DNA from: Cucumis sativus
Lineage: Eukaryota > Streptophyta > Magnoliopsida > Cucurbitales > Cucurbitaceae
Length of the DNA stretch: 64,000 nucleotides
NCBI RefSeq assembly: GCF_000004075.3
Contig: NC_026659.2
Coordinates: forward strand, 15,456,272-15,520,271
Direction: 5' to 3'
The notes under the pieces are model-generated. The model did no database searches, was not told the origin of the DNA, and saw nothing but the letters and a program-made list of their open reading frames with translations. Made by a program: the position numbers and the translations under genes. Positions 20,080 to 55,494 of the stretch are shown in pieces; within the stretch, counting starts at the first letter, position 1, and every line of letters begins with the position of its first letter.

Positions 20080-20354
20080 TATTAAACCACCAATTCATCC
20101 AAAAGCTTAAGTTGGTGGTTGAAGGCAAATTTAATTATATATCACCAACACTCCCCCTCACTTGTGGGCTTGAAATATTTGAAAGGCCCAACAAGTGGAA
20201 ATTGATTTTAATTGGGGAGGTAACGACAATGCAGGGGCTTGAACACAGGACCTTCTTGGACCACCTGCTCTGATACCATATTAAACCACCAATTCATCCA
20301 AAAGCTTAAGCTGGTGGTTGAAGGCAAATTTAATTATATATCACCAACAGCAAG
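20075..20354 (-). mobile_element. SMART-like miniature LTR element, 270 bp
   Basis: The element is 20080-20349. Its 71-bp LTRs at 20080-20150 and 20279-20349 differ at one base (aagttgg / aagctgg). GCAAG flanks both sides (20075-20079 and 20350-20354). On the minus strand a primer binding site TGGTATCAGAGCAGG lies at 20264-20278 and a polypurine tract at 20151-20160. The interior is only about 128 bp. This is in the size class of the smallest known plant LTR elements (SMARTs). It splits the copia-2 integrase core, whose reading continues in phase on both sides (SEFLASKGTVHQNS across the junction). Confidence 0.95.
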
Positions 20355-21275
20355 AAATTCACTAAGGTTATGGTTTTGGAATTCCCGACCATTATCACTC
20401 CGAAGAATAGCAATTTTTTGATGGAATTGTGTTTTCAATGGTGTGATAGAAATTTTTGAAACATAGAGGAAACCTCAGATTTATCAGTGATAAGGTAGAC
20501 CCAGGTAAGACGGGTATGATCATCAATGAAGGTTACGAACCACCGTTTTTCAGATGAGGTTGTTATCTTGGATGGTCCCCATACATCACTATGAACAAGA
20601 GTGAAGGGTTGGGTTGGTTTGTATGGTTGTGAGGGAAAAGAGACTCGATGTTGTTTGGCCTGAATACACACACATCACAAGATAAGGTAGTCATCTCAAC
20701 TTTAGAGAAGAGATGTGGAAATAAATGTTTCATATATTGAAAATTAGGGGTGGCCTAAACGAAAATGCCACAACATACAATCTTGTTCAGAAGTAGTGAA
20801 ATAGGAAGATAAGAGATTAGTCCTAGGAATGCTACTAGAAGAGGTATCGTCATCAAGGAGGTAGAGTCCCCTACTATGCCGGGCAGTGCCAATCATCCTC
20901 CCCGAGCTCAAGTCCTGAAAAGAGACAGAATCAGGTAAGAATATTGCTTTGCAGTTTAACTCATGAGTGATCTTGCTTATCGGAAGCAAATTATAAGATA
21001 GTTTGGGCACATGCAAAACATTATGTAAGGAGAGCCCTGCACAAGGAAAAATCTTCCCCTTTCCAGCAATGGGAGCCAAGGAGCCATCTGCAATTCTAAT
21101 TGTCTCGTTCCCAGCACAAGGAATGTAAGATACAAAATGTTCAGAGGACCCAGTCAAATGATCTGTGGCACCAGAATCCAGAATCCAGGGGTTCTTCCCA
21201 TCAATACTAACAAGACCGAAGGAATGGGGTTATACTTGATTCTGGACAATGGCACCTAAAGTGGCAAGACTGAGA
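20350..21275 (-). pseudogene. Copia-2 protease, GAG-pre-integrase and integrase N-terminal part
   Basis: The minus strand reads the aspartic protease signature (DSGATDHL, about 21165-21190), then DGSLAPIAGKG and VLHVPKLSYNLLPISK. The HHCC zinc-binding part of integrase follows (WHFRLGHP near 20745 and a LSCDVC pair near 20675), then the integrase core with SDVWGP and FIDDHTRLTWVYL. An in-frame stop lies upstream of the protease (about 21232). A GT-repeat length change at about 20668-20680 shifts the frame after the CxxC pair. Gene order is normal for copia. Confidence 0.9.
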
Positions 21276-22567
21276 TCAGTTTGGTTTTTGTTGTGGATCG
21301 GATTGTTGAGGAGGTTCAGCAGACTCACTCACAATACGCCCGCCCTGTGTTCTGTTGTTGTCGTTGGAAGGGCGTTTCTTACTTCCTGGGGGACGACCAT
21401 AGTAACTTCCAACATTGTTCTTTGGTATGTCATTGTTGTTTTTGCAATGCTCGCAGACAGGAATTGGTTTTCCATTATGCTTGTCACTGCTACTGTTAGA
21501 AGATCTTGCACTAAAAGCAGCAGAGTCAATAGTAGGGGTTGCGGAAATATTCATAGCACTAGTGCGATCTTCCTCGAGGCGGATTTCAGAGCAAACTTCC
21601 ATCAGGGAGGGAATCGGTCTTTGACCTAGTATACGCCCTCGAACTACATCAAACTTAGGATTAAGACCAGCAAGAAAGTCATAAATCCTGTCATTCTCTT
21701 CAATTCTCGAGTACTGTACACCATCAGTGGGATCACGCCAGACTAGTTCTCTGCATAGGTCCATTTCTTGCCATATAAGAGAAAGCTTATTGAAAAAGGA
21801 TGTGACATCCATGGTTCCTTGCTTGCATTCATGAACTTGCTTTCTCAGCGTGTATAGACGAGAGGCATTCTGACGTTTTGAGTAAAGTGTCTGGGCTGTG
21901 TCCCAAATATCCTTGGCTGTTGCAGCAAACAATAACGGCTTGCCAATTTGAGGTTCCATACTATTGATCAATATGGATCGAAGAATAGAGTCTTCTGCCT
22001 TCCAATATCGTTCATGTGGGTCACCCGGTAGGGGGCGAGGTATTTTCCCTGTCAGAAAGCTAAATTTTTGTCGTCCTTCGCGGACCATCTTTACTGACTG
22101 AGACCATGAGAAATAGTTGTTGCCATTCAACTTTTCTCCTGAAAGATGATACATGGAAGACTGAGCCACCGTATTAGTCACATAAGGAGAGGATACATTA
22201 GGGAACGAGTTTACCGGATTCTCAGAATACATCGGTATAGTGGATGTCGTCCCTAAGGTAGCCTCAAGTCCTGCTATCTGTTGTCGAAGCCCTTCCAATT
22301 GTTGATGAACTATTCCCGAGGAAGCTTGCACGTTACGGTTGGAATATGCCGAAGATTCACCAACCTCAAATGTTGAGTGAATTTGAGAGTTTTTAACATC
22401 GAGATGGTAGCTAGGATCATTGGGTGGCTGGCCATACAAATTTGACGGCAGAAGCGGTGGTAGCCGATTGGAATTAGATGGCAGAACATAAATCGGGGCG
22501 TGGGGAGCAATATAGGCCGCGGACGAAGAAAAGGGTTGGACAGATGGGATGGTCGGCGCCGTCTGAG
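21276..22567 (-). pseudogene. Copia-2 gag (main part)
   Basis: A long frame from 22439 to 21276 carries a copia capsid domain: LNGNNYFSWSQSVKM at about 22100, then RYWKAEDSILRSIL, SRLYTLRKQVHECKQG and YDFLAGLNPKFDVVRGRIL. A nucleocapsid-like CEHCKNN stretch follows, but the rest of the CCHC knuckle is not in frame. The N-terminal part (22567 down) is Pro/Ser rich and continues, across the hAT insertion, into 26282-26568. Gag would form the particle that packages element RNA. It is in a different phase from the following protease frame. Confidence 0.9.
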
Positions 22568-25500
22568 CAGTGTTTTTAAAGGCTCAAGGCGCACTAAGGC
22601 GCACTAAGGCGCATTGGTCCTCTGGAGCCTAGGCGCAAGGCGCAAAAAAAAGCGCGAGCTTTTTTTCATAAGGCGCACTATATATAAAAAGAGAAGAAAA
22701 TATATATATATACACACATATAGCAGAGCAACAATGTATAAAATATAGGTACCCAATATAAGTAGCCTAAACAACAAAACACAACAAAAAACTACCCAGT
22801 ATTCAATAAGTCAATAACCAAAATAAAAGTTCATCCCTAAAGATCAAACTCATCATCACTAAATTGATCCTCGTCTTCATTCAATCCTTCGTTAGACTTA
22901 TAGCCATCAGTATCTTCTTCTTCCAAATCGAAGTCATCTAAATTTACTTGTTTCCGTTGCGTGGTAGACGAGGATGAACATGAAACAATAGTCTTTGGTC
23001 TAGAGGTACTAGCTCTAGAATAGAATGATGGTTCTTTTGCTCCGACAGCTCTAGAAACATCACCCCACGTTAAAGAATCATCATTAAATACCAACTCATC
23101 ATCCTCCTCAGAATCGTCATCCAATCTTCCAATCAACCATTCATTACTATCATCAATATCTTTTAAGGAGATGGGGTCGACAATATCTCGTAGGTTGTAT
23201 CGACGTTTTAATGCTCTGTTGTATTTGATGAACACTAGATCATTCAAACGACTTTGAGCAAGCCTATTTCGTTTCTTGCTATGAAGCTGAAAAATTAGAA
23301 AGTTTCATTGTCAGTGAATCAACAAATTTTGATTCTCATTCTCAATGTACTTAAGGAGAGGAAAGGTAACCTGTTCAAACACACTCCAATTACGCTCGCA
23401 TCCAGAAGCACTACAAGTAAGACCTAAAATTCTCACATCAAACTTTTGCAAGTTTGGAGTTGATTGTCCAAAATTATCCCACCATTCCACTATAGGCACA
23501 AACAAAAATATATATATATTAATAGAAGAACTTGTTGCTAGTATCGTTGAGTAATCGTTTAGTTGAAATTTACCTGGAGATATTTTGTCCCTTTGTCTGA
23601 TTGCTAAAGGTTGTCCGAATAATGCTTCAGCCCTCTTATACTTGCTTAGTTCTGCAAGTATTTTGTCTTGTACTTCCAATGAAGCAACCATTTTTGTTAT
23701 GCATGAGTAGAGTCCATTAACTATTTCATCATCCTCCTGGATATTAGGATTCGAATAATAGAATGACAGGTTTAAATAATACCCCGCTGCATGCAGAGGA
23801 CGATGCAACTGAAGCTCCCATCTTTTATCAATTATGGTGAAAATGTCCTTGTATTTTTCTTCATTATTATTAAAGGATTTAGCAATAGCTTCCTTAGCTC
23901 TATCCATGGCCTCATAAATATATCCCATAGGTGGCTTCTTCTCGCCATCAACCAATCTAAGAACTCGGACTAGTGGGCCAGATACTTTAAGAGCGAAAAC
24001 AATTGTAGTCCAAAAACTAGCCAACAAAATAGTCTGAACTACTCGTTTCCCTTGTTGCTCCTTACTCCATTTGCTATTCTTCCATTCATCTGAAGTAAAC
24101 ATCTTCCTCAGATTATTCTTTTGACGATGTATACTCGATAATGTAATGCAAGCAGTAGCAAAACGAGTCTTAGCTGGTCTAACTAACTCCTTTTGGTTAG
24201 TAAAACGTCGCATCATGTTTAACAATCCAGGATGAACGTATATGAAATTGCTAATCTCTATGCCTCTTTTCAATGCTTTGCGAATATTCGAGATCTTGTA
24301 TATATCCTCCAACATCAAATCTAAGCAATGAGCGGCACACGGAGACCATATTAACTGTGGTCGTTTTGCTTCTAACAATCTCCCTATTAACAAAGAAAAT
24401 AAGTACACATTTAACGTAGAACTCAACTAAATCTAATAAATTAAAGTTATAACTTGTAAGTAGTCTACATTCTTACCTGCCATCACATTTGCTGAGGCAC
24501 TATCGGTAACTACTTGTACAACATTCGCTTCTCCAATTTGGTCTACAAAATTATCAAGTAACTCGAACATCTTCTTTCCATCTTTCACATAAAATGAAGC
24601 ATCGATGGACTCAATAAACATGGTGCCTTTAGGACTATTAACTAAAAAGTTAATTAATGTCCTATTTCTTCTATCGGTCCATCCATCAGCCATAACAGTG
24701 CATCCAACCTTGGCCCACTCTACCTTATGGTTACTCATCAACTCATTTGTTGCTTCTAATTCCTTCTTCAAACATGGAACTCTTAACTCATGATAAGATG
24801 GTGGTTTCAATCCAGGACCGAATTGCCCAATTGACTCAATCATAGGGGCAAAACTTTCATATGTGCAAGCATTCAGAGGCACTCCTGCATCATAAAACCA
24901 TCGAGCAATTCTTTGGATGGTGTGCTCTCTCATTTCCTTCTTGTATGTCGCATTCAATGAAGTTTGTTTTCCTTTGTCCTTTCTATTTTGAACCACAGTT
25001 TCTGGGTTAGGAGTAAAAAATGCATCCATTGGACCCTTTTGCCTTGGCTTCTTCAAGCTCGGGCCCCTTGGTGTTGCTTTGTTGTTTACACTAACACTCC
25101 CTTCATCTTCATCCTCAATATCGTAATCTTCTACATCAATGTCCACAATCAGATTTCTTTGTTCTTTAATATCTTTTTTCTTGGACATGTACTCTTTAAT
25201 TTCTTCCTTCACGTGATCCGGACATTTTGTACAGGCGGTGACATTTCTATAACCACCAACGAGGTGTTGTTTCATTCTATATACCCCTCCTTTTGTTACT
25301 TTCGAACAAAATCCACAGACAAACGTATTTATATTTTGGTCATTTTGCAATTGACCATATTTCCATGCCGGATCTTTTCTCGAACTTTCATCAGCCATCT
25401 ATGATCTAAGTTATAAAAAAAAAAAAAACAGAAACTATTTAAAACAGCAGTTGTTATTAAAAAAAAAAAAAACAGAAGCTATCTATGGATGGGATGAAGT

Positions 25501-30917: not shown

Positions 30918-33031
30918 ATCACTTTAAAAAGAAAAGAAAGGGAAATTAATTTCCTTTCTTCTTCTTCCTCCCGCGCCCCCCTTCTTCCGTTTTTCTTCTT
31001 CTTCGTTCTTGTGCCCTAGCCACTTATCACACTCCAACCTCACCGCCAGCCACCTTCAATTTTCTCTTTTTTTTCGTTCACCCGTCGACATCAGTAGCCC
31101 AAACATCGCATCCCAGGCCGCCACATCCCCGCTGCTCGCGTTTCGCCCTTGCGGTTTGTTGAAGCCAAAACCGGTCGTCGCGTTTTTGTTTGCGATTCGT
31201 CTCCAACCGTCACGCCTCGAGCCGCTGCGTCCTTCACACTTCGCGACCGACCAAAGCCCAATCGAAGCCGCACGTCTTTTTCTCGTCAGATCCGCCACCG
31301 CCACCGCCTCCCATTTTTTTCCCTCTTTTTCGTTCGCTGTAGCCGCCGGCCGCCTCCCCAGCCGCTTCTTCTCCGTTCGTCCACCACAACCGTCGCGCCT
31401 CCGTCTGAAATCAAGCCGTCGTCCAGATCTGCGAAGCTGCCGCACCTTCGTCTGCGCCGGTCTTCGTAGCGAAACCAGCCGTTCTAATCTGCCTTGCACG
31501 CTGTTGCTTGGGTCGACTGGTGCACTAACGTTTCTGCCTTGCCACGAAGAATATTGGGGTTTTGTGCTGTCAATTGTGGAGAGTGTTTGAATTTTTGGGT
31601 TCACGAAAGTTGCTTCAAGTCCAATTCTCTATTTAATTTGAGTAAGTTTTGGAATTTACATTAGAGTGAATGATTGAAGGGATGAAATTGCTTGCGGAAG
31701 TAATGGGTTTCTGTTTGATTGTGTTTAGGTTCGTTCGTTGCATTGTAGTTTGAAAAAGGAGCTTAAGCAAGGTTAAGGTAAGGGACTTTCTCCTGGACCC
31801 ATATGTGAATTTAAATGATTGAAACTATTTGACTGTTATATGTGGAATTGAGCAATTTAAAGGGAATGACCGCTAAGATTAAGTCGATGTGGTTAAAGGG
31901 ACTTAATGGCTTAGATAGTTTTATGTGTTGATGAAATGACTAAATTAAAAATGTTTGTTGTTTGAACTGAGGATGCTTGACTCTTATGTTAAAGAATGGA
32001 TAGTATACGTTTGATTGGATTGACAATTAACATAAGTGGCACTTATGTTGATTGGATTGACAATTGACATAAGTGGCACTTATGTATGAGTATACCTAAT
32101 TTAGAAATCGTTACGCTAAGGTCGGATTATATGTTAGTAAGGGTTCCTAATATTGGACTCAACGATGAAATTGAGATGTATTGTCTGATGGACTGACTGA
32201 TATGCAAATCTTTTTTTTTACTGTTTGGCTGTATTGAGATGACTGACGGGTACGTATGCTTGGTTGGTTATGATGACTGATTAAGTTGTGATTTGTTGGT
32301 TGTTATGTTAGGGCATAGGTAGTGTCCTGTGGTTACTGAACTAAATTAAACTGACTGAATTGAGAAGAGTGATACTTGTGTATAAGTTTATTCGTTGAGG
32401 AACTGTTATAACAATGTTGAGTAGGTGTTGGATTGCATAAATGGTCTGTAAGAGTGTTGAACTCAGAGAATGAAATAGTGGTAGCTTGAATTGCAAATTG
32501 AACGATTATTAAAATGTTTAGAATGGACTGAGGGGAAAATTGTTAGCTTTTATTGGGATGTGTGCCTTGTAGGTGTCCTACGGGATCACCAATTTTTATG
32601 CATCCTTCGGGAGCATTAGACTGATAAGTGTTTCTGCAGAAAACTAGACTCCCTTGGGTGTTAGACTGATAGACTGTGACTGTGCAGGGTATTCCAATAG
32701 GACGTTAACAATTTATTTTTCCCTATCGGGACCAGTAGTGATATTTTTATACTCACCTATTTTGTTTAATTTTTCAGGCAAAGGTAACCAAGGTGGCAAA
32801 CTGGCGAGGGGCAGAAAGGAAGCAACATCTTTGTTTTGCTTCCGCTTTATGTTTTTTATGTTTAAAACCTTATGTTTAAGTTTACCTTACGAACTATTAC
32901 TTTGGTAAATAGTATGTGTATATATATATATATATATATTAAGTTTTAGTTGCTTGAAACCGAGCCTGTTCAAAGATATGTTTTTCCTTGATTGAATGTT
33001 TTTAAATGTCTTACATTCCATATTGTATCAA
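30731..33031 (+). mobile_element. Ty3/gypsy LTR (solo or truncated), plus orientation
   Basis: Begins TGTAAAACCCCGAACTC, comparable with TGTAACGCCCGAAATC of the solo LTR at 6277 (read on -). It contains an ATT run (about 30880-30920), a GC-rich leader (30965-31560), and conserved late blocks with tgtttaatttttcaggcaaag near 32763 and cttacattccatattgtatcaa near 33010. It lacks the last roughly 80 bases (no CGTTACA-type end): it stops exactly where MULE-B starts. Frames over 31009-31604 on both strands are non-genic leader. No gypsy coding sequence adjoins it. Confidence 0.85.
32012..32085. repeat. Tandem duplication of 37 bp inside the gypsy LTR
   Basis: tgattggattgacaatt(a/g)aca begins at 32012 and again at 32049. 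Local duplication specific to this LTR copy, which helps explain its greater length (2.3 kb against 1.6 kb). Confidence 0.88.
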
Positions 33032-33150
33032 GGGGAATTATCAAAAATAGGATAATTTGGAAGGATCTAAAGAGTTTTGAGATGAATTTTAAAAAAGATG
33101 ACTTTTAGGACAAATTAGTTGGAAAAAGTCTATATTACCCTCAAGTTAAA
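33032..33150 (+). repeat. MULE-B left terminal inverted repeat
   Basis: Pairs with about 44000-44118. Shared landmarks in order are ggggaatt, caaaaatagg, gagtttt, a TTTAGGA(C/T)AAATT block, and a final tattaccctc / aaataccctc. Confidence 0.88.
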
Positions 33151-33430
33151 AAATATCCTAAAATCAATTTATGAATCCTCTCTTCTCCTTCTCCCTCCGT
33201 TTTTTCACTTTCTAAAAATGTTTCATTTTTCCATCATCCCTCCCTCTGGTGTTCCATTTTCCCTCATTTTCACGAAATTTCCTTTTTCTTCCTTTTCCAT
33301 TCTTTAATTTGTTTTCTTGAAATTTCTTTCTCAAGCTCTTCCCATGGTCTCCCACCGGCCTTTGAAAACCATTTTCTCCATTTTCTCACTTCCAAAAAGA
33401 ATATTTCATTTTTCTCTCATCTCTCTCCAT

Positions 33431-34298
33431 TTTCATACATTGTGGGATAAATTGGCCTTCCTAATTCTAAGAGCATGAGAATGTTGCTCTCACCTGCATT
33501 GTTGTACATTATATAAAAGTTCTGCACACTTTACAATTTTCCAAGATATAATGAAATAAAAATTGCATACCAAAAAACAAAAATGGTATTCATTCCATTA
33601 TATAAAACTATTTATGTACATAGTTTGGAACATATACAATTCCTTCAAAAGTTGGAACTAAAAGTTAATACATGAGATTGTTGGTCCATAATTGAAATGC
33701 CAATTGTTTTCTAAAATATGACATGTTTTCTTGACATAATGTAGTTACATCTAAACCAGAAGCTTCATATTCGAAATACTTAATTGTAAATACACCACAA
33801 TCACTATTGTTGCGTTGAAGTGGAATGGAGTCGACAATGACAAGTGGCCAAGGTTCCTTGTGTGTTGATGATCCACCTCTCCTAACAAAGAATCCAGTAG
33901 TATCGAGCAAATTTGGCACCATCTCTTGAATTGGCTCTAATATGCTTCTCATATCTTCGGCACTCGTCAGCGACGGAAGCGAATCCCATACCTTAACTTG
34001 ACAACGTACCAAGCCCAAGCATAATAGACTCCAATGATTGCCATGGATATTGAATGGAGAGTAAATGTAATCAACATTCACCCAAGGATCTTGACAGTCT
34101 TGTTTTGATCCGACAACATAGTCAACCTGCTTACTAAATGTGATAAACTACTTACTATAGACTGAAAATGATGAGCAGGGTCAATCTTGTACATGGGACC
34201 GTTAGTTGATGTCGAAGCCATACTGAAACCTGCATAAAAAAAAACTAATTAAATATAATTGCATAAGAGACTTACTAAACATGGATGCACTAGCATCT
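33431..34298 (-). repeat. Left arm of the MULE-B inverted repeat, outer part
   Basis: An inverted copy of two separate parts of the right arm. 33431-34130 matches 38735-39432 (protease exon and 3' flank), and 34130-34298 matches 36160-36340 (promoter side and first exon). The intervening 2.4 kb of the right arm is missing here. Outer boundary: tttcatacattgtgggataa at 33431 against ttatcccacaatgtatgaaa ending at 39432. Confidence 0.93.
33665..34130 (-). pseudogene. Ulp1-type protease domain, inverted duplicate copy
   Basis: The minus-strand frame (34081-33665, open further up to about 34130) contains the C48 cysteine protease core: FNIHGNHWSLLC (His), VKVWDSL (Asp), PLQRNNSDCGVFTIKYFE (Gln and catalytic Cys). 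All catalytic residues are present. It has only about eight amino-acid differences from the right-arm copy at 38664-39200. It lacks the upstream exons; a duplicate of exon 1 (MASTSTNGPMY, minus strand from 34221) is fused by deletion just upstream and is followed by stops. So it is a truncated copy, not a separate gene. Confidence 0.85.
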
Positions 34299-35479
34299 TG
34301 GGACTTCTACTCAAAATTTTGGAAGGTGAGAGATAGGTGCTGATAGGTGCGAGATGCTGGAAAACTTCAAGGCAAAGTTGCTAAGTCTAATAAAATTGCT
34401 AACCCTAAAGCCTTAACACCTAGTAGAGTAGCTAAACATGCATTCTAAACGGTTTAGGAAGTTAACACTCTTATATTGGGACTTCTACTCAAAATTTTGG
34501 AAGGTGAGAGATAGGTGCTGATAGGTGCGAGATGATGGAAAACTTCAAGGCAAAGTTGCTAAGTCTAATAAAATTGCTAACCCTAAAGCCTTAACACCTA
34601 GTAGAGTAGCTAAACATGCATTCTAAACGGTTTAGGAAGTTAACACTCTTATATTGGGACTTCTACTCAAAATTTTGGAAGGTGCGAGATAGGTGCTGAT
34701 AGGTGCGAGATGATGGAAAACTTCAAGGCAAAGTTGCTAAGTCTAATAAAATTGCTAACCCTAAAGCCTTAACACCTAGTAGAGTTCTTAAACATGCATT
34801 CTAAACGGTTTAGGAAGTTTACACTCTTATATTGGGACTTCTACTCAAAATTTTGGAAGGTGCGAGATAGGTGCTGATAGGTGCGAGATGATGGAAAACT
34901 TCAAGACAAAGTTGCTAAGTCTAATAGAATTGCTAACCCTAAAGCCTTAACACCTAGTAGACTAGATAAACATGCATTCTAAACGGTTTAGGAAGTTAAC
35001 ACTCTTATATTGGGACTTCTACTCAAAATTTTGGAAGGTGCGAGATATGTGCTGATAAGTGCGAGATGATGGAAAACTTCAAGGCAAAGTTGCTAAGTCT
35101 AATAAAATTGCTAGCTAAACATGCATTCTAAACGATTTAGGAAGTTAACACTCTTATATTAGGACTTCTACTCAAAATTTTTGGAAGGTGAGAGATGATA
35201 TGTGCGGCATGATGGAAAATTTCAAGGCAAAGTTGCTAAGTCTAATAAAATAGCTAACCCTAAAGCCATAACACCTAGTAGACTAGCTAAACATGCATTC
35301 TAAACGGTTTAGGAAGGTTAACACTCTCATCTTGGGACTTCTACTCAAAATTTTGGAAGGTGCGAGATAGGTGCTGATAGGTGCGAGATGATGGAAAAAT
35401 TCAAGGCAAAGTAGCTAAGTCTAATAAAATTTTGAAAGGCTAACACTCTCATCTTGGGACTTCTACTCAAAATTTTGGA
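34299..35479 (+). repeat. 178-bp tandem repeat array, forward half (8 units)
   Basis: Units start with tgggacttctactcaaaatt (or a one-base variant) at 34299, 34477, 34655, 34833, 35011, 35160, 35333 and 35455. The first four spacings after 34299 are exactly 178 bp; the later ones (149, 173, 122) carry deletions, and the last unit is cut short. Each unit includes gataggtgctgataggtgcg and ctaaccctaaagccttaaca. No coding potential was seen. Together with the inverted half it forms the centre of a palindrome. Confidence 0.96.
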
Positions 35480-36160
35480 AATGCATGTTTAGCTAGTCTA
35501 CTAGGTGTTATGGCTTTAGGGTTAGCAATTTTATTAGACTTAGCAACTTTGCCTTGAAGTTTTCCATCATCTCGCACACTATCAGCACCTATCTCTCACC
35601 TTCCAAAATTTTGAGTAGAAGTCCCAATATAAGAGTGTTAACTTCCTAAACCGTTTAGAATGCATGTTTAGCTACTCTACTAGGTGTTAAGGCTTTAGGG
35701 TTAGCAATTTTATTAGACTTAGCAACTTTGCCTTGAATTTTGCCATCATCTCGCACCTATCAGCACCTATCTCGCACCTTCCAAAATTTTGAGTAGAAGT
35801 CCCAATATAAGAGTGTAAACTTCCTAAACCGTTTAGAATGCATGTTTAGCTACTCTACTAGGTGTTAAGGCTTTAGGGTTAGCAATTTTATTAGACTTAG
35901 CAACTTTGCCTTGAAGTTTTCCATCATCTCTCACCTATCAGCACCTATCTCTCACCTTCCAAAATTTTGAGTAGAAGTCCCAATATAAGAGTGTAAACTT
36001 CCTAAACCGTTTAGAATGCATGTTTAGCTAGTCTACTAGGTGTTAAGGCTATAGGGTTAGCAATTTTATTAGACTTAGCAACTTTGCCTTGAAGTTTTCC
36101 ATCATCTCTCACCTATCAGCACCTATCTCTCACCTTCCAAAATTTTGAGTAGAAGTCCCA
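35480..36160 (-). repeat. 178-bp tandem repeat array, inverted half (4 units)
   Basis: The same unit in opposite orientation, ending gagtagaagtccca at 35626, 35804, 35982 and 36160 (spacing 178 each; first unit partial). It directly follows the forward half, so the two can fold on each other over about 680 bp in addition to the outer arms. Confidence 0.96.
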
Positions 36161-36239
36161 AGATGCTAGTGCATCCATGTTTAGTAAGTCTCTTATGCAA
36201 TTATATTTAATTAGTTTTTTTTTTTATGCAGGTCTCAGT

Positions 36240-39200
36240 ATGGCTTCGACATCAACTAACGGTCCCATGTACAAGATTGACCCTGCTCATCATTTTCAGT
36301 CTATAGTAAGTAGTTTATGACATTTAGAAAACAGTACGCGTACAATAAAGGCTAAATTGAAACCGGATCAATTAACCTTATTTAGAAATACAAAGTTCGG
36401 CCACTTTTTGGATCTGAATATAATCTTTAATGGGCCGCTCATCCACTACTTATTGTTAAGGAGGTGGAAGATGAAAGGGTTGATCACATCAGTTTCAAGA
36501 TAGGAGAAGTCGTGTGCAGTTTTGGTAGGAGAGAATTTAATATGATGACGGGTCTATGGAGTTCTCAACCAGAGCCTATTGATTTGGTTGGGAATAGTAG
36601 GTTGTTGGAGAAGTTCTTCGAACAAAAAAAGTGTATTTATATAAGTGACTTAGAGGACACATTTGTGGAATACGAGGGGGATGACGATGACGATGACGAT
36701 GACATAGTTAAATTAGCTCTAGTTTACTTTATAGAGATGTCATTGTTAGGAAAAGATAGGCGGACGAAAGTGGACCGAACTTTATTTAGGATTGCAGATG
36801 ATTGGACCACATTTAACAATTACGATTGGGGAGGGTTGGTTTTTGGACGTACACTTTCTGCCTTAAAACGAGCCTTGGACATGCAACATGCCAAGGGAAA
36901 GAATAAATCAACTAAGACAAAATATACTGTCATGGGATTTCCGCAGGCGTTACAGGTATGTTACTTTACTTCCTATGCACATATTTATATATACATATAT
37001 CTTGGGACACTTGCTAAACTTGTTTTGTTGAACATGGAATAGGTTTGGGCATATGAGTCTATACCAACCATCACTGAATGTGGTGTACATAAAGTAAGCA
37101 ACGATGCAATACCACGAATGCTGAGGTGGGTGTGCGAACTATCGCCGAAGTCTCATGTCCTACAGAGGCAGGTGTTTGACTCACCAATGGTAAGTATCAA
37201 CAAACAGTAACTTACCGAATGCATGACTTTGTTCCTTTATGTTTTGACTAACTAACTACATTTCCACTTTGTAGTTCTTAATTAACGTGGTAATTGAGAT
37301 GATGCCTGAAGAGGAGGAGCATCTAAGAATGTCTTCAGGGGAACTTGTTGAGAAAACTCATCCATATAATACCGTTTCTGAGAAGAATGGTGATTCAAAA
37401 CGACCAGGAGAAGCTAGTAATGATGACAATGACTGCAAAAAGAGTAAGAAAAAGAAGAAGTGGAAGTCTAAGATGAAAGAAGTTGTTCGAAAACTCAAAT
37501 ATCGAGTAGCGGTTCTCGAGAATGAACGTGAAAGCCTAAAATCAATGCTGTCGACTATATTGAAACACCTTGAAGTTCAAAAAAAGGTTAGGAATCAAAG
37601 TTTGTTTAACATTTTCAAAGTTTGTGGTACATTTTCAACGTGTTTCTTACCAATACATTTTGACATTTCCAAAGGGTGAAGAAGGAGACTGCACGGGAGT
37701 TGAAGGTCATGATGCCCAGACCGAAGATGTTGACACACCCGGTACACCTTGGTTGAGGATGCCCAAGGAGGATGACACAAGTGATGGGGTGAAACACGTT
37801 GAACTTCAAAAGCAGGTTAGGAATCAAAGTTGTGTAGTGGGGTGAAAATCATCCTTACTAATGCTTTATCCTTAGTAATGCATTTTGACCTTCCATAGGG
37901 TGTCGAAGCAAACCGCACGGAGGATGACACAATGGACGAGTTGGATAAGAAGGTTCATATTCATTCGGAGGAGCCAATAGACGTCGTTGACGATTTGAAC
38001 GAGGAAATTGGAGTAAAAAGTCTTACTTATTTTGATTCAGACGTCATGGAAATAGAACCATTATCCACTGAACGACCACATGTTCGGCCCGCACGTAGGC
38101 AAGTGTATACTTGTCAACCCCCTTCACAGCTTTAGATAAACGGACTACAAAATCAATCACCACCACCTCTCAGTCTCAACCATCCGTCTATGATCCTATG
38201 CACAAAATACCTGACGCCCATTTAGATCGACTCAGAGCTTGGATCACAGACAAGCGTACGAAAGATGAGGTGCGTGAAACTTTTCACGGGAAAAAATCGA
38301 AGGAGTTTTTCAGAGACTTGTTCATGTGTCGTCGGTGGTTGGCGGATGAGGTTAGAACTTTTCTCATTATTTCTTATTTACAGTTTTAGAGCACTTAGTA
38401 CCTTCAAGAAGTTGGTTTGATCGCATAACCGAATTAAATGCTTTATTTTGTTTCTATTAGCATTTGGATGCACTGTTTCTTCTCATTCGCTTCAACATTA
38501 AGACAGCCATGATACCTTTTGCTCAAAACTTCACAACTGTAGACACACTATTCATGGTTTGTACTCGCAACCATACTTTATGTACTGAATTTGCTTTTGA
38601 TATTTGTCTTATTGTCTCATTGTATACATGCATGTGTGGTTTTTTTCCTTCCAACGACTATTAGTTGCGAAGTGGCCTGAATACCAAGAATGTATTAAAG
38701 AGAATCGACCATTTCACTGGAAGGAGGAGTATCAGTTGGTTGACTATGTTGTCGGATCAAAACAAGACTGTCAAGATCCTTGGGTGAATGTTGATTACAT
38801 TTACTCTCCATTCAATGTCCATGACAATCATTGGATTCTATTATGCTTGGACTTGGTACGTTGTCAAGTTAAGGTATGGGATTCGCTTCCGTCGCTTACG
38901 AGTGCCGAAAATATGAGAAGCATATTAGAGCCAATTCAAGAGATGGTGCCAAATTTGCTCGATACTACTGGATTCTTTGTTAGGAGAGGCGGATCATCAA
39001 CACACAAGGAACCTTGGCCACTTGTCATTGTCGACTCCATTCCACTTCAACGCAACAATAGTGATTGTGGTGTATTTACAATTAAGTATTTCGAATATGA
39101 AGCTTCTGGTTTAGATGTAGCTACATTATGTCAAGAAAACATGTCATATTTTAGAAAACAATTGGCATTTCAATTATGGACCAACAATCCCATGTATTGA
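36240..39200 (+). pseudogene. MULE-B Ulp1/DUF1985 gene (C48 cysteine protease), frameshifted
   Basis: Predicted exons: 36240-36305 (MASTSTNGPMY..), about 36335-36956, 37043-37191, 37275-37586, 37674-37814, 37899-38350 and 38664-39200, with GT-AG borders. Exon 2 is DUF1985 (KFGHFLDL, then GEVVCSFGRREFNMMTGL, ALVYFIEMSLLGKDRR, FNNYDWGGLVF). Middle exons are charged, with a coiled-coil-like stretch (ENERESLKSMLS). The last exon is the Ulp1 protease core: His in NVHDNHW, Asp in VWDSL, Cys in NNSDCGVFTIKYFE. Proteins of this fold cleave SUMO-like modifiers; the substrate of transposon versions is unknown. A one-base deletion near 36460 and another shift near 38125 break the frame, so it is scored as a pseudogene unless these are sequence errors. 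Convergent with the transposase. Confidence 0.82.
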
Positions 39201-39432
39201 CTTTTAGTTCCAACTTTTGAAGGAATTGTATATGTTCCAAACTATGTACATAAATAGTTTTATATAATGGAATGAATACCATTTTTGTTTTTTGGTATGC
39301 AATTTTTATTTCATTCTCTTGGAAAATTGTAAAGTGTGCAGAACTTTTATATAATGTACAACAATGCAGGTGAGAGCAACATTCTCATGCTCTTAGAATT
39401 AGGAAGGCCAATTTATCCCACAATGTATGAAA
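38735..39432 (+). repeat. Right arm of the MULE-B inverted repeat, outer part
   Basis: Reverse complement of 33431-34130 with few differences. It covers the protease exon, its stop and about 230 bases of 3' flank, ending at caatgtatgaaa (39432). The inner part of the same arm is 36160-36340. Confidence 0.93.
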
Positions 39433-40753
39433 ATTTCACCTCTTTGAATGCTAATTGTTTTTGGCAGGTGTCTTAGAAACATTTTTGGATTTCAATGTAT
39501 GAATATAGACATTCTTGATGTGTTACCAGTGGTGGAGCAGAGGTTTGTGGTGGCTGCGGAACTGCAGAAGCAATGGGTTCAGGTTATGCATCAAATCAAT
39601 TAAACTTCCAGAAGGTTGCTGATAACTCTGTTATCTCAGCAAGAGCCTCCTTTGTATGACGGTGGTAAAGTATTGGACTTGATCGTTGCATACATTAACA
39701 AGTTATGATATGATAAAATGTGGGGGATGTAAGTTTACCATGATACAAGAGTGGTCTAGAGAATTATGCTTGGTATTCAATGCCCATGGAAATAGTTTTA
39801 GTTAGCTCCTAGTGAAAAATGGATTTATATATAGCCTCACGTAGAAGGTTTTCATTATAAAAACATCTTATGTAGGAACAATTGATCCTCATTACCAATA
39901 GCAGCATTTTGATCTGTGTCTTGTTCTGTACCTTTGTTGTTAACCAATAGCAGCATTTTCATTATTCTTTGTAGCTTTGGAGTTGTTCTAATGGAAGTAC
40001 CAACATAAAAGAAGCCCATTTTCTAAGATAACTGCCAGGAAAACAATAGGAAAGCAGAATGAGATATCTAAAAGGTAATCTGAAAGAGATGGTAGATCCC
40101 AGCATATCATAGGCTCAGGTGGAGAACGCAGTCAAAGTGGTAAGGATCGCACTTCGCTGCACGACTAAGATTCCATCTACAAGGCCCTTCATGCAAATGG
40201 TGGTTCGCTTGAAGAGGCTGAACCTTGTAAAAACTAAAAGTAGCAAAAGGTTTGCATTTATTACTACTGCACACTTTAAGTAATCAGCAAGAGGCTTGAA
40301 ATGCAGCAAGGGCTGAATCTTTAAGTAATCAGCAAGGGCTGAACCTTGTAAAAACTAACAGAGGCTGAACCTTGAAGATGAATGTAAAAACTAAAAGTAA
40401 TCAGCAAGATTTGCATCATTAATACTGCAGTAGCAAAAGGAGAGCATTTATTGAGTTCTAAAGCACACAATATTGTCATAATAGGATTTCAAGTCTTTCT
40501 CAAAAAGCTTGAAATGCCAAAGGAGTAAATATTCTATAAACAGTTCACAGTCTTGAAGTTGCAGAAGAAAAGTCTTCAACTTAGAATTGTCAGTGAGATG
40601 ACTTTAGTGATCTTGCAAACAACACAGGACACAATTTTATAAGCATCTTCCACCTGCATTAAAAAAATGAACCTTTTTTACATCGTGATCATGCAAACAA
40701 CGCAAGCACAAACCAAGCAAGTATAAAACTATTACTACGTACCAAGACGGGTA
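39433..40753. other. Spacer between convergent MULE-B genes, with candidate captured exon
   Basis: A frame from an acceptor-like ttggcag (39461-39467) runs GCLRNIFGFQCM then MNIDILDVLPVVEQRF and AELQKQWVQVMHQIN to a stop at 39601-39603. It looks like a real exon but I do not recognise it. At 40130-40440 there are irregular repeats of gctgaaccttg and aatcagcaag. The rest is probably 3' sequence of the two genes. Confidence 0.4.
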
Positions 40754-43174
40754 CTAATCTTGTATGCTCGACTTCTGGATGTATGAAATTGGATTGGTAC
40801 ACGTTAATCTATTGTGGCCTGTTTCTTTACATCGACCACATTTATGCAATTTTGGTGCTTCACCGACACTTGGAATCCTCTTTTTCTTCGGTCGACCAAC
40901 TCTTTTGACTACTTTCGGAGGTAAGACAGTCATATGTACATATTCTTCGGTTGTCTTCCATTCCGACTGATTCCCAACTGGGTAGACGGCCTCCGAATAT
41001 GCTGCCAACAAACATTCATTAGTGTAATAGTTAGCACATAAGCTATAAACATTTATATTGCGATCCCGTGCAACAGCAATGGCATGTGCGCATGGTAGTT
41101 GCTCAGCTTGAAACTCCTTACAAGTGCACTCTTGAGTATGAAGATTTATGACCTCCTCTTTATCTAAATCTTTAACATGGAATTGGTAACAATCAATTGG
41201 GTTGACTTTCATTGTCAAAGCTCGTTCTTGTTTCTTTTGTAGAACTAACTCTGCCCATTTAGTCAATGTAGACGTCACTTTAATGCCTTCTTCTCGACGC
41301 TCCCAAAACCAACGTTGTAGCAAAGCTCGAACATGTTCAAGGAATGAAGCAATAGGCAAATCTCTAGGTTCTTTCAGTATAGAATTCATGGACTCTGCTA
41401 TATTTGTTGTCATCATATTATATCGTCTTCCTGGACAGTGAAAACGAGACCAACGTGTTATTCCAACATCGTTTAAATATTTTCCTGAATCATTAGGAAA
41501 TGCAAGAATACTTCTCCACGCTTCTGAGAACGTTGATTCACGATATGTTCTAGATGCATTGTAAAACAAAGTAGCTATAGTGTCATTCTTGTATTTATCA
41601 TTCAAATTTTGAGTCAAGTGTTGGACACAAAGTCCATGGAATGCGGAGGGAAAAACCGATGCAATACACTTAGAAAAACATGTTTTTCGATCTGTCACGA
41701 AGCCTAGATTAGGCACCTCTCCTATTGCACCTTTCAATTTCTCTAAGAACCACTGTATTGAAGCATCTGTTTCTCTGTCCACCACTCCAAAGGCAAGAGG
41801 ATAAATTTGATTGTTACCATCCAAGCAAACAGCAACTATCAACTGACCCCGATATTTGTTCTTAAGGAATGTTCCATCCATGACTATAACCGGTCTAATG
41901 CAGTTTAAGAATCCTCGAACACATGGACCAACAGCCATAAAAAGATATTTGAAGAAACGATTATCTTCAAGTTCCATGTGAAATATTGTACCTACATTTG
42001 CAAGTTTGAGAGCTTCACCATATCTAAGCAATAGATTATATGACTCTTCAGGACACCCGCGCACTCGTTCATACGCATTTTCTCTAGCGCGCCATGCTTT
42101 TTCATAACTCATATTTATGCCATAGTCTTGCCTCATGTCTTCTATGATATCACGTGGTTTGTATAGACGACCGACTCCCTTGAACTTTGACTTTATTAAT
42201 TCTCCAACAACCCAAGATTTTGCTTGCCTATGGTCACGATTCAAAACGTCAAGAGAACACGAATGAACTTTGACATACTTTTTAATCTTAAATATATTTG
42301 AATCCTTCAATCTCATCGCTCGCAGTCTCCAACCACACTTGTTGTCAATGCATCTAACAAAGAGAACCTCTTTTGTAGACTTTTTTACTACAAACTGAAA
42401 ATTTTTTTTCATTGCCAAGACACTTAATCTCATTGACAAATCTTTTTTGGAAAAAAATATTTGTCCTACATCAAACTCCTCACTTGTAGAGCTTTCTTCG
42501 GACCAATCATTCATGTCTGTCTTCAACTTTTGGCTAGAAGAGCTGTAACGAACTTTAGATTTTCCTTTGCAATCTTTTGTAGGACCATCTCTATGTTGTG
42601 GGATGTCAAATGATTCACTATTCATCTCTACTGGCTCCCATGTAAAAGTCTCATCTTTCGAATCATATGACTCATATGATTCCCATATAGCCGAAGTGGT
42701 CCCTATCACGTTATCACACAAGCCAACTTCAACTTCACGAACATGAACTTCATTCTCATTTAATGTATCCATTACAATTGGAGGATGAGGGTTTAAGTTA
42801 TGAGCTTGGTTGCTGCCAGATACTGAATTGTAATCTTTGCTTAACACTTTTTTGCTTTGATTACTTTTAGGCTCAAATGAGACGTATAAAGGGACCTTTA
42901 ATGGATTTTCACTAAGAAGATAAAACTTCAAATCACGGTCATTGCTTAACTCAAATGTAGGAGCTTCGTGTTCCACTTTTATCTCATATATGCATCTTAT
43001 CATTACGTCGAACTTTGAAGGGTCAACTTCTGCAAGGTCATATAATTCTGCCTGTAAATCTTTATGTGTTATTTCTTTACTGACAACGATGCCTTTTAAC
43101 ATGCCTCCTTCGTATTTTCTTCGCCTCTCATCCCACATACCACCGTAACGCACTAACATGGGAATATGTGACAT
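40754..43174 (-). CDS. MULE-B transposase (MuDR family), uninterrupted 806 aa
   Basis: One open frame with no stops. N-terminal PB1-like region (residues about 5-100, with DPSKFDVMIRCIYEI). MuDR DNA-binding domain (about 235-320: QIFFSKKDLSMRLSVLA, then CIDNKCGWRLRA). MULE transposase core (about 425-520) with VIVMDGTFLKNKYRG and NLGFVTDRKTCF carrying two catalytic Asp residues, and FHGLCVQHLTQNL. SWIM zinc finger (about 665-690: CTCKEFQAEQLPCAHAIA). C-terminal zinc knuckle CGRCKETGHNRLTC near the end. Length and order are typical of full plant MULE transposases. Start ATG at 43174 follows an intron acceptor-like tttttgcag (about 43200), so a non-coding 5' exon is likely. It would act in the nucleus on the element's terminal repeats. 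Candidate active enzyme. Confidence 0.95.
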   Translation of the reverse strand: MSHIPMLVRYGGMWDERRRKYEGGMLKGIVVSKEITHKDLQAELYDLAEVDPSKFDVMIRCIYEIKVEHEAPTFELSNDRDLKFYLLSENPLKVPLYVSFEPKSNQSKKVLSKDYNSVSGSNQAHNLNPHPPIVMDTLNENEVHVREVEVGLCDNVIGTTSAIWESYESYDSKDETFTWEPVEMNSESFDIPQHRDGPTKDCKGKSKVRYSSSSQKLKTDMNDWSEESSTSEEFDVGQIFFSKKDLSMRLSVLAMKKNFQFVVKKSTKEVLFVRCIDNKCGWRLRAMRLKDSNIFKIKKYVKVHSCSLDVLNRDHRQAKSWVVGELIKSKFKGVGRLYKPRDIIEDMRQDYGINMSYEKAWRARENAYERVRGCPEESYNLLLRYGEALKLANVGTIFHMELEDNRFFKYLFMAVGPCVRGFLNCIRPVIVMDGTFLKNKYRGQLIVAVCLDGNNQIYPLAFGVVDRETDASIQWFLEKLKGAIGEVPNLGFVTDRKTCFSKCIASVFPSAFHGLCVQHLTQNLNDKYKNDTIATLFYNASRTYRESTFSEAWRSILAFPNDSGKYLNDVGITRWSRFHCPGRRYNMMTTNIAESMNSILKEPRDLPIASFLEHVRALLQRWFWERREEGIKVTSTLTKWAELVLQKKQERALTMKVNPIDCYQFHVKDLDKEEVINLHTQECTCKEFQAEQLPCAHAIAVARDRNINVYSLCANYYTNECLLAAYSEAVYPVGNQSEWKTTEEYVHMTVLPPKVVKRVGRPKKKRIPSVGEAPKLHKCGRCKETGHNRLTCTNPISYIQKSSIQD

Positions 43175-43999
43175 CCTTAAACCACCTTATACTTTTCAAT
43201 TGCTGCAAAAAATGATTTGAAGTTAGCATTTGACATATCACATAAACAAAGTTTATTAAAAAACAGTAGGTAAATACTAAATAAAACGTGCATAGTCACA
43301 CCCTACATGTTTACGATCTTGACAGCTACAAAATGTTTAGGATATTGCGAGATACAAAAAACAATAGCTAAAAGTCACCCTAAATCAATTCATTTCAGAT
43401 TAAACATTTCAATTTAAGAACCTGCAAGATGTCTGCGAGATGTTTGCGAGATGTCTACCAGATGTTTGCGAGATAAAATAATAATAATGATAAATTGCTA
43501 ACATCATTTGAAACATCTATAAAGCAACCTTAAATCAACCCTAAATCAACTTGAAACAATAAAAAATAATATTTGATTTATACATTTAAGATGCAAAAAT
43601 ATATATACATATAACACAACACAATTCAGATTCGGATTTAAAAATTAAAACAAACCACAATGCGTGAGATGTTCGCCGGAGTAGATGATGAACGACACCG
43701 GAGTAAAGCGGAAAGTTGACAAACTTTTGAGAGAGGAGAAGAATCGCAAATGGGTTTTTCTTTTTTCTTTTTCCTTTACATAATCTATGAGAAGGAGGAG
43801 AAATGCTTCTTTTTTCTTTACGTAATCTATGAGACTGCAAGAGAAGGATTCTTCTTTTTTTTTTTTTCCCTTTACGTAATCTTTGAGGAGAGGAGAAGAA
43901 GGCTGCCTTCGAAATTCTGTTTTTTTTTCCTTCAGGTGAATGACATTGAAGAGAGAGAGAGAGGGGTTGGAAAAGAAGAGAAGAGCAAATGTGAATTGA
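43175..43999 (-). promoter_or_regulatory. Leader and promoter region of the MULE-B transposase
   Basis: Non-coding upstream of the transposase. It contains a small cluster of gagatgt(c/t)tgcgagatg repeats at 43425-43475 and a leader with CT-rich character on the minus strand (43700-43980). A splice acceptor lies near 43200. No certain TATA box was assigned. Confidence 0.4.
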
Positions 44000-44118
44000 A
44001 ATTAAAAGAGGGTATTTTCGTCATTTCACCTCCAATTTATCCTAAATCTCAACTTTTTTACAATCAATCCTAAAACTCTTTTTCTACCCCATTTTTGGCC
44101 TATTTTTGTCAATTCCCC
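44000..44118 (-). repeat. MULE-B right terminal inverted repeat
   Basis: Reverse complement partner of 33032-33150; ends aattcccc at 44118. Confidence 0.88.
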
Positions 44119-44686
44119 AACAAAATGAGATATTTTAGCTTAAGTGTTCACTGCATGATGTTCTGATTTATGACCATGTAATCTAAAATGTTATCTAACC
44201 TGAACAATATTGCTCAAGTAGTTGGTATTGAAATTTAGGGGCTCATTGGAGTTATGAAGTATTGTTTATGATACTTTTAAGTTAAGCTGAAACTTTCAAC
44301 TCTCATGCATGTTTTTTTTTTTTTTTTTTGAGTTGATTAGCTATTTTGGAAATATACTTGTGTGTGAGTTTTATTTGTGTTTGGGTGTGTGCTGGTTTTT
44401 CTTACCATAATCGTTTCAAATTCAGCTATCTATATAGTGTTATTTTGTATCTCTTAATCGTTGTTTGGGATAGAAATTTTTTTAATGCTATCAAATAAAT
44501 TATTGCTGGACAGCAATACTCTTCAACATGATGTACATTTGATTGCCATTTAAGCTTTTTAAGGGTGATATACTTGAGTATTTTGAGAATTATGTACTGT
44601 TTTGAAAGTTGTTGTCCAATATCTCTTTTGTAATCAGATTTATGTAGAGGCCAATTTAGAAGTTTGAATTTTTATAAATCTACACA
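44119..44686 (+). other. CACTA-2 5' region after MULE-B
   Basis: AT-rich. It continues the CACTA-2 leader: 29582-30730 plus this segment is about 1.7 kb, matching the 1.7 kb before TNP2 in CACTA-3. The sequence tgtagaggccaatttaga at 44642 has a near copy at about 51440 in CACTA-3. No gene before 44687. Confidence 0.5.
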
Positions 44687-47300: not shown

Positions 47301-47998
47301 GTTCATGTAATAGCGGAGTGGCAAGGAGAATATGAAAAAATTGTAGTAATTGAGTAATTTGCAACATGAAAAAAATGTTAAAATATATGAATTTGTGACA
47401 ATTATTAATTGTTGTCAATACGAAAACAATGACAGTTTTTTTACAAAATTAATTGTCACGATTGCCCTATTTGTGACACGAAAAAAATGTCGTCAGTAGA
47501 TAAAAAATGACAATTTTTTTTAAAAAAGAACTGTCACGATTGTCATATATTTGACAGAAAAAAAGTGTCGTCAATAGAAAAACAATGACATTTAACTTTA
47601 TCCAAAAACTATCACAATTGCATTATATTTGACTGAAAATAAATGTCGTCAATAACATAACAATGACATTTTAAAAAAAAAACTATCGCGATTGACATAT
47701 CCGTGACATTTAAAACATGTCACAATAAACGAATTCGCAACATTTATTTAACTGTCGTTAATACACAAATGATGATAGTTATTTATTGTCATAAAATAAA
47801 ATATGACAGTTATTTGATATCGTAGAATGCTAATTAACGACATTTATTTTATGTCATGAAATAAGTTATTGCGACAGTTTTTGAAAACTATCATGGAATG
47901 ACTTTTCATGACTCCTGCTTCTATGACTGAAAATAACTGTCACGGATTTTGTTCGCGACAGTAAATAATTGTCGTCGTAAACCATTTTTCTTGTAGTG
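47301..47998. repeat. CACTA-2 right subterminal repeats and terminus
   Basis: Many copies of tgacagtt/tgacattt and aactgtca/ctatcac, roughly every 40-60 bases, end in the terminal ttttcttgtagtg. The same motif family occurs just inside the left end (29600-29740) and inside the left end of CACTA-3 (49800-49980). Confidence 0.9.
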
Positions 47999-52209: not shown

Positions 52210-52738
52210 TGTCACAATCGTAGCGTTTCAACCTCGAGACGGACGATTGTGCGACACTTGTTCTAACTCGATGAACAAGTCAGCCGATCAATATCCAAGA
52301 GTTGTGGGTAACGTCGACGTATGCCGTAACCTTCGTTTGCGTTTTAGGGAAACTTTATTTATAAAATGCGGGAAAGAAAGAAATACATTGAAATAGACGT
52401 TACAATAAGCATTAAAGACTATCAATTGCAAGGAAAAAGGGTTGCTTGCAAAGAGTACAACTAATGCTTGGGCGGGGATTCAACTGGTATGCCTCCCCCT
52501 ATAGTACATTTTAAACATTTTTCTCTCTGGCAAGCTTGCATATGAAAATGTCGAAACGTCACACCTAAGCTTTATGACCTAGAATGAAAAGAAAACGCCT
52601 AAACTAGTTATGCAAACTAAAGATGAGATAAACTGGGGGTAATCGGAGCATATAACCAAAGGTAAACACACTTTGGAAAAATATGTCCGTGACACACTCC
52701 CCCACTTAAACATTTAACGTCCCCGTCGACTGGCAAAG

Positions 52739-53968: not shown

Positions 53969-54364
53969 ACTCTCACGTTTCCCATCTCCATATATCGTAA
54001 CCTTCGTTTGCGTTTTAGGAAAATTTTATTTATAAAACGCGGGAAAGAAAGAAATACATTGAAATAGACGTTATAATAAGCATTAAAGACTGTCAATTGC
54101 AAGGAAAAAGGGTTGCTTGCAAAGAGTACAACTAATACTTGGGCGGGGATTCAACTGGAATGCCTCCCCCTATAGTACATTTTGAACATTTTCCTCTCTG
54201 GCAGACTTGCATATGAAAATGCCGAAACGTCACACCCAAGCTTTATGACCTAGAATGAAAAGCAAACACCTAAACTAGTTATGCAAACTAAAGATGAGAT
54301 AAACGGGGGTAATCGGAGCATATAACCAAAGGTAAACACACTTTGGAAAAATATGTCTATGACA

Positions 54365-55494
54365 CCAAGCAGATGTGGTATTTTCCAATAGTTCCAAGAT
54401 TTATAAGAATGTGCAAGAGATTTGAGAATGCTAAGAACTTGTGTTGACATGCGTTCGATAGAAAAGTCGATGGTATTAGAAAAGTCGATGGCATTTTGAG
54501 ACACCTAACTGACACTCCATCATGGGGGTTGATAGATCACATGTGCTCAACCTTTAGGTTAGAACCAAGAAATCTCTATTTGGGTTTGTCCATTGATGGA
54601 ATTAACCCATTTGAAGATTTATCGACGACCTACAGTTGTTGGCCAGTTATTATTACAATATAAAACTTTACACCATGGTTGTGTATGAGATGGAAGTATT
54701 TGATGTTGACAATGATAATATCAGGTCCAAAGCAACAGAGATACGATATCAATATGTATTTAGACCCTTAATTGATGACCTAAAAATTTTGTGGGAAGAC
54801 AGAGTTCGGTGTTTTAATGCATACAAAGAAGAATATTTCACATTGCGAGCTATCTTATTGTGGACTATCAATGTTTTTCTTGCATATGATAATCTATGCG
54901 GTTGTAGTGTCAAAGGTTATAAGGCTTGTCCAATATGTGGAAAGGAGACTATAATAAGACTGCAACATGTAAAAAAATTCATACGTGGGACGCGAAAAAT
55001 ATTTGCCAAGACATTATCCATACATAATACAAAAGAAAAATTGATGGTAAGCAAGAACATGGAAGTCCACAACCCTTGTCGGGGGAGGCCATGAACTTCA
55101 AACTCAAAGACAGAATATTTTCATGTAGGAAGATATTGCATAATGAAGGTGACAATGACTATTGAAAAAGAATATCATAATTTTATAAACTACCATATTT
55201 GAAAGATTTGCATGTACGACATTGTCTAGATGTAATGCATATTAAAAAGAATGTATGCATGAACATAGTAAGAACATTGTTTGACATACCAGGAAAAAGT
55301 AAAGATGGGATGAATACTAGACTTGATTTAGTTGAAATGAAAATTAGACCATAATTACACCAACATTTACAGGTAATAGAACTTTCATACCTGCGACATG
55401 CAATCCATTGTCAAGAGATGAGAAGTATCGATTTTGTAAGACTTTGTCTAAAATTAAAGTTTTAGAAGGGTATTCATCTGATGATAACCTGTCT
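54365..55494 (+). pseudogene. TNP2 transposase pseudogene, middle part (CACTA-3)
   Basis: Reads KQMWYFPIVPRFIRM right after the target site, then WGLIDHMCSTFRLEPRNLYL, GLSIDGINPFEDL, YSCWPVIIT, LIDDLKILWED and FTLRAILLWTINVFLAY. The zinc-binding CPICGKET follows, then HVRHCLDVMHIKKNVC and a final EKYRFCKTLSKIK-type segment. These are ordered TNP2 landmarks, including the His-Cys-Met and C-P-x-C parts. Several stops and frameshifts occur (near 54535, 54660, 55095 and 55160). Ends abruptly at the gypsy element. Confidence 0.88.

Follow-up and report, generated by a model that had tools for sequence, protein, structure and literature searches.

A 64,000-nucleotide stretch of the cucumber genome (Cucumis sativus assembly GCF_000004075.3, contig C5, positions 15456272-15520271; hereafter the window) contains a large imperfect inverted repeat over the Ulp gene of a Mutator-like element (MULE). 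We found that its two halves are parts of two different kinds of MULE, and most probably (with a probability of about 0.84) the structure, unique in the genome, joins two distinct members of a single Ulp1-carrying MULE family head to head. The inverted repeat would be a by-product, because the fused elements share sequence. All searches were run against this assembly (226,625,048 bases in 88 contigs); genome locus counts are lower bounds (about 40 candidates were scored per search), copies of the two element classes described below were sampled by fetching, and their target duplications were judged by eye.

A preliminary description of the region had drawn two facing arms around the Ulp gene, with coordinates that proved right to a few bases. 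The first pairing, arm A, aligns 33429-34127 with 39434-38738 (686/699 columns identical, 2 gap columns), and the second aligns 34127-34978 with 36334-35480 (830/855 columns identical, 3 gap columns). The arms face each other at 97-98% identity, differing at 13/699 and 25/855 columns, and chance cannot account for arms so long and so alike. The left arm is indeed a deleted copy, as had been proposed: nothing in it corresponds to 36335-38737 (about 2.4 kb), and so it retains the exon-1 region and the protease exon. A Ulp1 (Peptidase_C48) frame is open in both arms, at 33665-34147 on the minus strand (E=5e-24) and at 38601-39200 on the plus strand (E=1.4e-25). At the centre, the earlier count of eight forward against four inverted 178-bp units holds only if truncated pieces are included, the figures otherwise being about 4.6 and 3.8: the forward array has about 4.6 copies at 34298-35113, followed, as far as 35479, by forward pieces that are truncated or degenerate, and the inverted array has about 3.8 copies at 35480-36161. 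What had been missed is that two different elements lie beyond the arms, which run on into them; in full, the structure spans 33032-44118.

The left half, from 33032 to about 35479, belongs to a common non-autonomous MULE, here called class 2. Its piece 33032-34300 recurs at 94-99% identity in at least 21 other loci, from the first 1-6 bases to the end and with the deletion junction included. Class-2 copies (L009-L020, 2.3-3.8 kb) consist of a 33032-type end, a deleted Ulp gene, a 178-bp array running in one direction, and another end; in L018 the deletion differs from that of the other copies. This other end resembles the window's own right end (approximately 43971-44120) at 91-93% in 8/12 copies and at just 76-77% in the remaining four (L009, L010, L016, and L020). 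Class 2 is itself a mosaic, its segment 33032-33372 also occurring at 86-96% in at least 10 loci where the match stops there. At two of these, C1:9663804-9666106 and C3:24735302-24737621, the end has a facing partner about 2.3 kb away, which marks another type of MULE. On contigs C47 and C48, members of the two classes are found nested or within kilobases of one another (L031 on C47 and L015 on C48), and the class-2 copy in L015 starts about 100 bp past the 178-bp array of another member.

The right half (35480-44118) belongs to a MULE of approximately 10 kb, here class 1, that has a transposase as well as DUF1985 and Ulp1 frames. Its piece 36160-37300 is matched over the whole length at 96% or more in at least 26 other loci. 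These elements run from a left terminal inverted repeat (TIR) through about 740 bp, the array, the Ulp gene, and the transposase to a right TIR, as in L021+L022 (9974 bp) and L025+L026 (about 10.6 kb), where a probe for the array unit is found 11 and 10 times, respectively. The left TIR of L021 shows 91% aligned identity to window positions 44120-43964. L027 and L028+L029 (the latter two forming one element) are shorter class-1 variants. Among the matches listed, the window is the only locus common to the left-piece and right-piece searches. We rejected the identification of the L028/L029 element with the CsMULE of CsMYB60, of similar length by coordinates: no MYB frame was seen by eye in its flanks, where a Copia-like frame adjoins. 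The family also has MITE-like miniature relatives of about 520-600 bp (L032-L036, at C2:21501500, C2:22999000, C1:31476200, C4:8636200, and C4:22370300), small natural inverted repeats in which both halves match the transposase-side end of class 1 (TIR and motif cluster at 43392-43497) and face each other. Target duplications of 9 bp were seen by eye in four of these five (L033-L036), and three further loci (L037-L039) are nested or more diverged.

The halves meet at 35479/35480, where the direction of the array flips with an overlap of about 1 bp. A 33-mer spanning this point has a single genome match at up to 3 mismatches (reversed control: 0). A 25-mer of the 178-bp unit lies on both strands in the window and on both strands in 0/20 fetched loci that hold it; the unit has at least 266 genome matches, and the portion of them listed agrees by eye with the one-strand pattern outside the window. 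The inner ends of both parents, class 1 and class 2, are missing from the window. Perfect 9-bp target duplications flank 9/12 class-2 copies (L016 matches at 7/9 bases, L015 has none, and L019 has a damaged end) and all three class-1 copies with both ends read. No such duplication surrounds the fused unit, which is flanked by TTGTATCAA on the left and AACAAAATG on the right, so nothing suggests that the entire unit came in by a single insertion. It does carry a MULE transposase (PF10551, E=2.7e-20, in 40754-43186) and TIRs (33032-33142 against 44118-44008 reversed, 84/116 columns identical); with these present and the target duplication absent, the halves are parts of MULEs and the whole is not one MULE insertion.

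Origin of the inverted repeat

Most simply, the fusion would have followed from two insertions and then a deletion. On this account, two MULEs would have landed close together, facing opposite ways; breakage and rejoining within their arrays (overlap about 1 bp) would then have eliminated both inner ends and anything between them.

The history of the arms was read from a tree of arm A with 32 rows and 697 columns (the two window arms together with 13 class-2 and 18 class-1 loci sampled, of which L018 was dropped for having fewer than 500 bases). A branch supported at 96/87 divides the rows into a set of 20 (the left arm, 12 class-2 and 7 class-1 loci) and a set of 12 (the right arm and 11 class-1 loci); lying on opposite sides of it, the arms are not each other's closest relatives. 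The right arm shares an unresolved fork with L041 and L042, which adjoin C1:12033451 and C5:12311210, the only two other unbroken matches to 39200-40760 among the matches listed.

The preliminary description had read the locus as an inverted duplication of one element. Duplication in place, with the deletion occurring during the event or afterwards, would explain facing arms of 97-98% identity, but it is very improbable: the same end and deletion junction are found at 21 other loci, the terminal segment of the left half is absent from class-1 ends, the supported branch splits the arms, and the outer flanks share no target duplication. Insertion of a class-1 element into a class-2 copy was also discarded, as no match to either class lies within 44119-44300. 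An assembly misjoin, bringing together two separate MULE copies within their repeat arrays, is unlikely. The join is seen in one assembly, it sits in a repeat with hundreds of genome matches, and unequal flanking 9-mers are expected from a misjoin too; overlap errors, however, usually connect repeats that run in the same direction, and at this join the array changes direction across an overlap of about 1 bp. The 13 and 25 columns at which the arms differ argue likewise against a fold-back read artefact. Still unlikely, if the least so of these alternatives, is a fusion made by the transposase, which would have cut the facing inner ends as a pair (alternative transposition) before resection and joining. 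What each element has lost is an inner end with a terminal repeat, and 9-bp duplications show that related ends have moved; yet an inner-end footprint is absent, and ordinary double-strand-break deletion gives the same loss.

Some observations weigh against a head-to-head fusion of two family members, or at least soften the case for it. Exact parent copies were not found in the genome searched. The tree is shallow, resting on 697 columns, it is weak in 14/23 inner branches, and its bootstrap has not settled. By path length, moreover, the right arm ties (0.0086) with class-2 L012 and L019 as well as with L041 and L042. If the fusion reading is right, inverted-repeat transposon loci can arise without duplication, when relatives that share a subterminal array are joined head to head; both parental classes are multi-copy in the same genome. 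We found no account of this locus in the titles and abstract openings of the literature searched, a coverage outside which many subscription papers fall.

Hairpin potential and the DUF1985/Ulp1 gene

Read-through transcription had been suggested to give a long hairpin RNA, and the pairing potential is in keeping with this: given read-through, a hairpin could form. Among the 21-mers of 35480-39434, 1167/3935 find an exact complement in the left part; 564 of them come from the array, 108 from the exon-1 region, and 495 from the protease exon and 3' flank, with none in the middle of the interval. Most of the 869 distinct stem 21-mers are shared with the family, 617-796 of them being held by 13/16 relative pieces tested; L027, L028, and L029, which are deleted or partial, hold 295, 236, and 140. 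The predicted RNA fold of 34127-36334 (-1596 kcal/mol, 832 arm-to-arm pairs) is what is expected of any such repeat. Both outer ends of the fused unit point inward and, in maize, MuDR has promoters in or just inside its TIRs (PMC3440606), which makes read-through from either end plausible. Such a transcript would double back across the array, exon 1, and the protease exon, giving a hairpin that Dicer-type enzymes could cut into small interfering RNAs (siRNAs) against the family.

Judged from sequence, some siRNA output from the locus is a real possibility, though short of an even bet, and an important silencing role in trans is unlikely. It is improbable that the locus actively silences its family in the manner of Mu killer (Muk), the maize locus that silences MuDR, a proposal that would be compatible with a fusion origin. 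The extent of perfect pairing, the sharing of stem 21-mers with relatives, and the inward-pointing outer ends would all suit such a role, and non-autonomous copies often trigger the silencing of autonomous ones (PMC10398659). However, Muk silencing plants carry short antisense transcripts, and in Muk it is these that silencing follows, the read-through hairpin model being argued against (PMC3440606). The fused Ulp gene also lacks the class-1 inner TIR, its likely promoter side. Finally, private substitutions, scored against 6 class-1 and 12 class-2 elements, show no C>T excess (10/27 in the Ulp half, 7/16 in the transposase half, and 4/6 in the left arm, all small numbers), so that no methylation scar is seen. 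The private substitution rate is higher in the Ulp half (27/3188) than in the transposase half (16/4135), a difference that may just reflect the relatives sampled.

The gene partly covered by the stem has features of a second MULE gene of the VANC/KIU kind, with DUF1985 (PF09331, E=9.6e-15) and Ulp1 (PF02902, E=1.4e-25) each in an open frame of its own within one region, and it adjoins the 178-bp tandem array. DUF1985 is one of two domains marked in Arabidopsis VANC proteins (PMC5735166, Fig. 5 legend), and VANC genes of the KIU type also carry Ulp1 (PMC13317346). VANC21 is described as binding a short motif, and VANC targets are often noncoding tandem repeats. RNA-directed DNA methylation acts on the same noncoding regions (PMC10398659). 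The window has 17 occurrences of the motif TGCGAGAT, where 1.01 would be expected. Of these, 13 lie in the arrays, where the copies are tandem and not independent, and 4 upstream of the transposase, with none elsewhere. The tandem form of the motif has 186 genome matches (reversed control: 0), many of them in copies of the same element types, and the class-1 array of L021 has TGAGAGAT in its place. A shared-8-mer null gave P=0.027. As a link between gene and array, TGCGAGAT is suggestive only.

If the VANC reading is right, the stem would overlie portions of a gene for anti-silencing and of the array where its protein presumably lands, and not the transposase as in Mu killer; a Muk-like role against an anti-silencer is an attractive but speculative idea. 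The fusion might then be a natural silencing trigger against a transposon's counter-defence, its siRNAs knocking down the VANC-like gene and methylating the landing sites, which would disarm the family; we regard this as a long shot, together with the notion that the fused unit might also move, which stems from both outer ends being of kinds used by mobile relatives. Should small RNAs arise here, the locus would offer a direct test of whether a MULE family can be tamed by silencing a Ulp1/DUF1985 gene instead of the transposase.

Feature coordinates and the rest of the window

Table 1. Features of the fused unit and its borders, in window coordinates.
Feature	Position	Strand	Evidence or remark
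9 bases left of element	33023..33031	.	TTGTATCAA; no repeat on the right side
Left TIR, class-2 outer end	33032..33142	+	84/116 columns vs 44118-44008 reversed
End segment common to another MULE type	33032..33372	+	10 loci with no match past the segment, 86-96%
Left arm A: Ulp1 protease exon and 3' flank, reversed	33429..34127	-	686/699 columns vs 39434-38738; C48 frame 33665-34147
2.4-kb deletion junction	34127..34128	.	Common to 21 other loci
Left arm, Ulp gene exon-1 region, reversed	34128..34297	-	Arm alignment
Forward 178-bp array, final pieces truncated	34298..35479	+	Repeat analysis
Head-to-head fusion point (probable)	35479..35480	.	Spanning 33-mer: 1 genome match at <=3 mismatches
Inverted 178-bp array of class-1 half	35480..36161	-	Repeat analysis and alignment
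Right arm, Ulp gene exon-1 region	36162..36334	+	Arm alignment
Open frame with DUF1985	36431..37042	+	PF09331 E=9.6e-15
Open frame with Ulp1 protease domain, over right arm A (38738-39434)	38601..39200	+	PF02902 E=1.4e-25
MULE transposase, 810-residue open frame	40754..43186	-	PF10551 E=2.7e-20, PF03108, SWIM
Four-copy TGCGAGAT motif cluster, partly 11-bp tandem	43346..43474	.	Motif count
Right TIR, class-1 outer end	44008..44118	-	TIR alignment
9 bases right of element	44119..44127	.	AACAAAATG

Elsewhere in the window, Copia-like retrotransposon frames were recognised by eye at 17737-22583 on the minus strand, and 16414-16564 is repeated exactly at 17592-17742. Further minus-strand frames at 22837-25398 carry DUF659 and, within 24433-25398, a weak BED zinc finger, a combination typical of hAT transposons. 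A direct repeat of about 371 bp (52325-52695 and 53996-54365, 95% identity) has its copies 1.67 kb apart, and 47410-47708 is a 78-bp tandem repeat with about 3.9 diverged copies.

Comparison with known systems

Cucurbit MULEs were compared by description only. A Ulp1-carrying MULE of melon, CUMULE, was reportedly described by van Leeuwen in 2007. In cucumber, the CsMULE found in CsMYB60 is a comparable element of 7003 bp that has a MURA-like transposase, TIRs of 117 and 115 bp, and a target duplication of 9 bp, and the available part of its account mentions no inverted fusion (PMC6305189). The VANDAL/VANC and KAONASHI (KIU) MULEs of Arabidopsis share with the window family a second gene, the DUF1985 domain of VANC, Ulp1 (in KIU), and noncoding tandem repeats. 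The terminal repeats of VANDALs are degenerate (PMC10398659), whereas those of this family are clear, as seen between L021 and the window's right end.

The closest parallel in shape is Mu killer: both loci are deleted, rearranged MULEs with facing copies of an element gene, and for both a long hairpin has been proposed. The likeness extends in part to the outer ends. In Muk, both terminal repeats come from the mudrA-side end (PMC3440606); in the window, both outer ends lie away from the array, which in class 1 is the transposase side. The differences lie in content and history. Muk repeats the transposase gene of MuDR, whereas the window joins two elements over a Ulp gene and an array, with a stem that ends at 39434, short of the transposase. 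Nor does it look like an inverted duplication of one element, and its left outer end is that of another type of MULE. Silencing has been shown genetically for Muk, whereas the likeness of the window is one of shape. The locus holds a rearrangement, present in one copy, of mobile elements of known kinds; it is more likely real than an assembly error, and it is like Mu killer in outline, not in origin.

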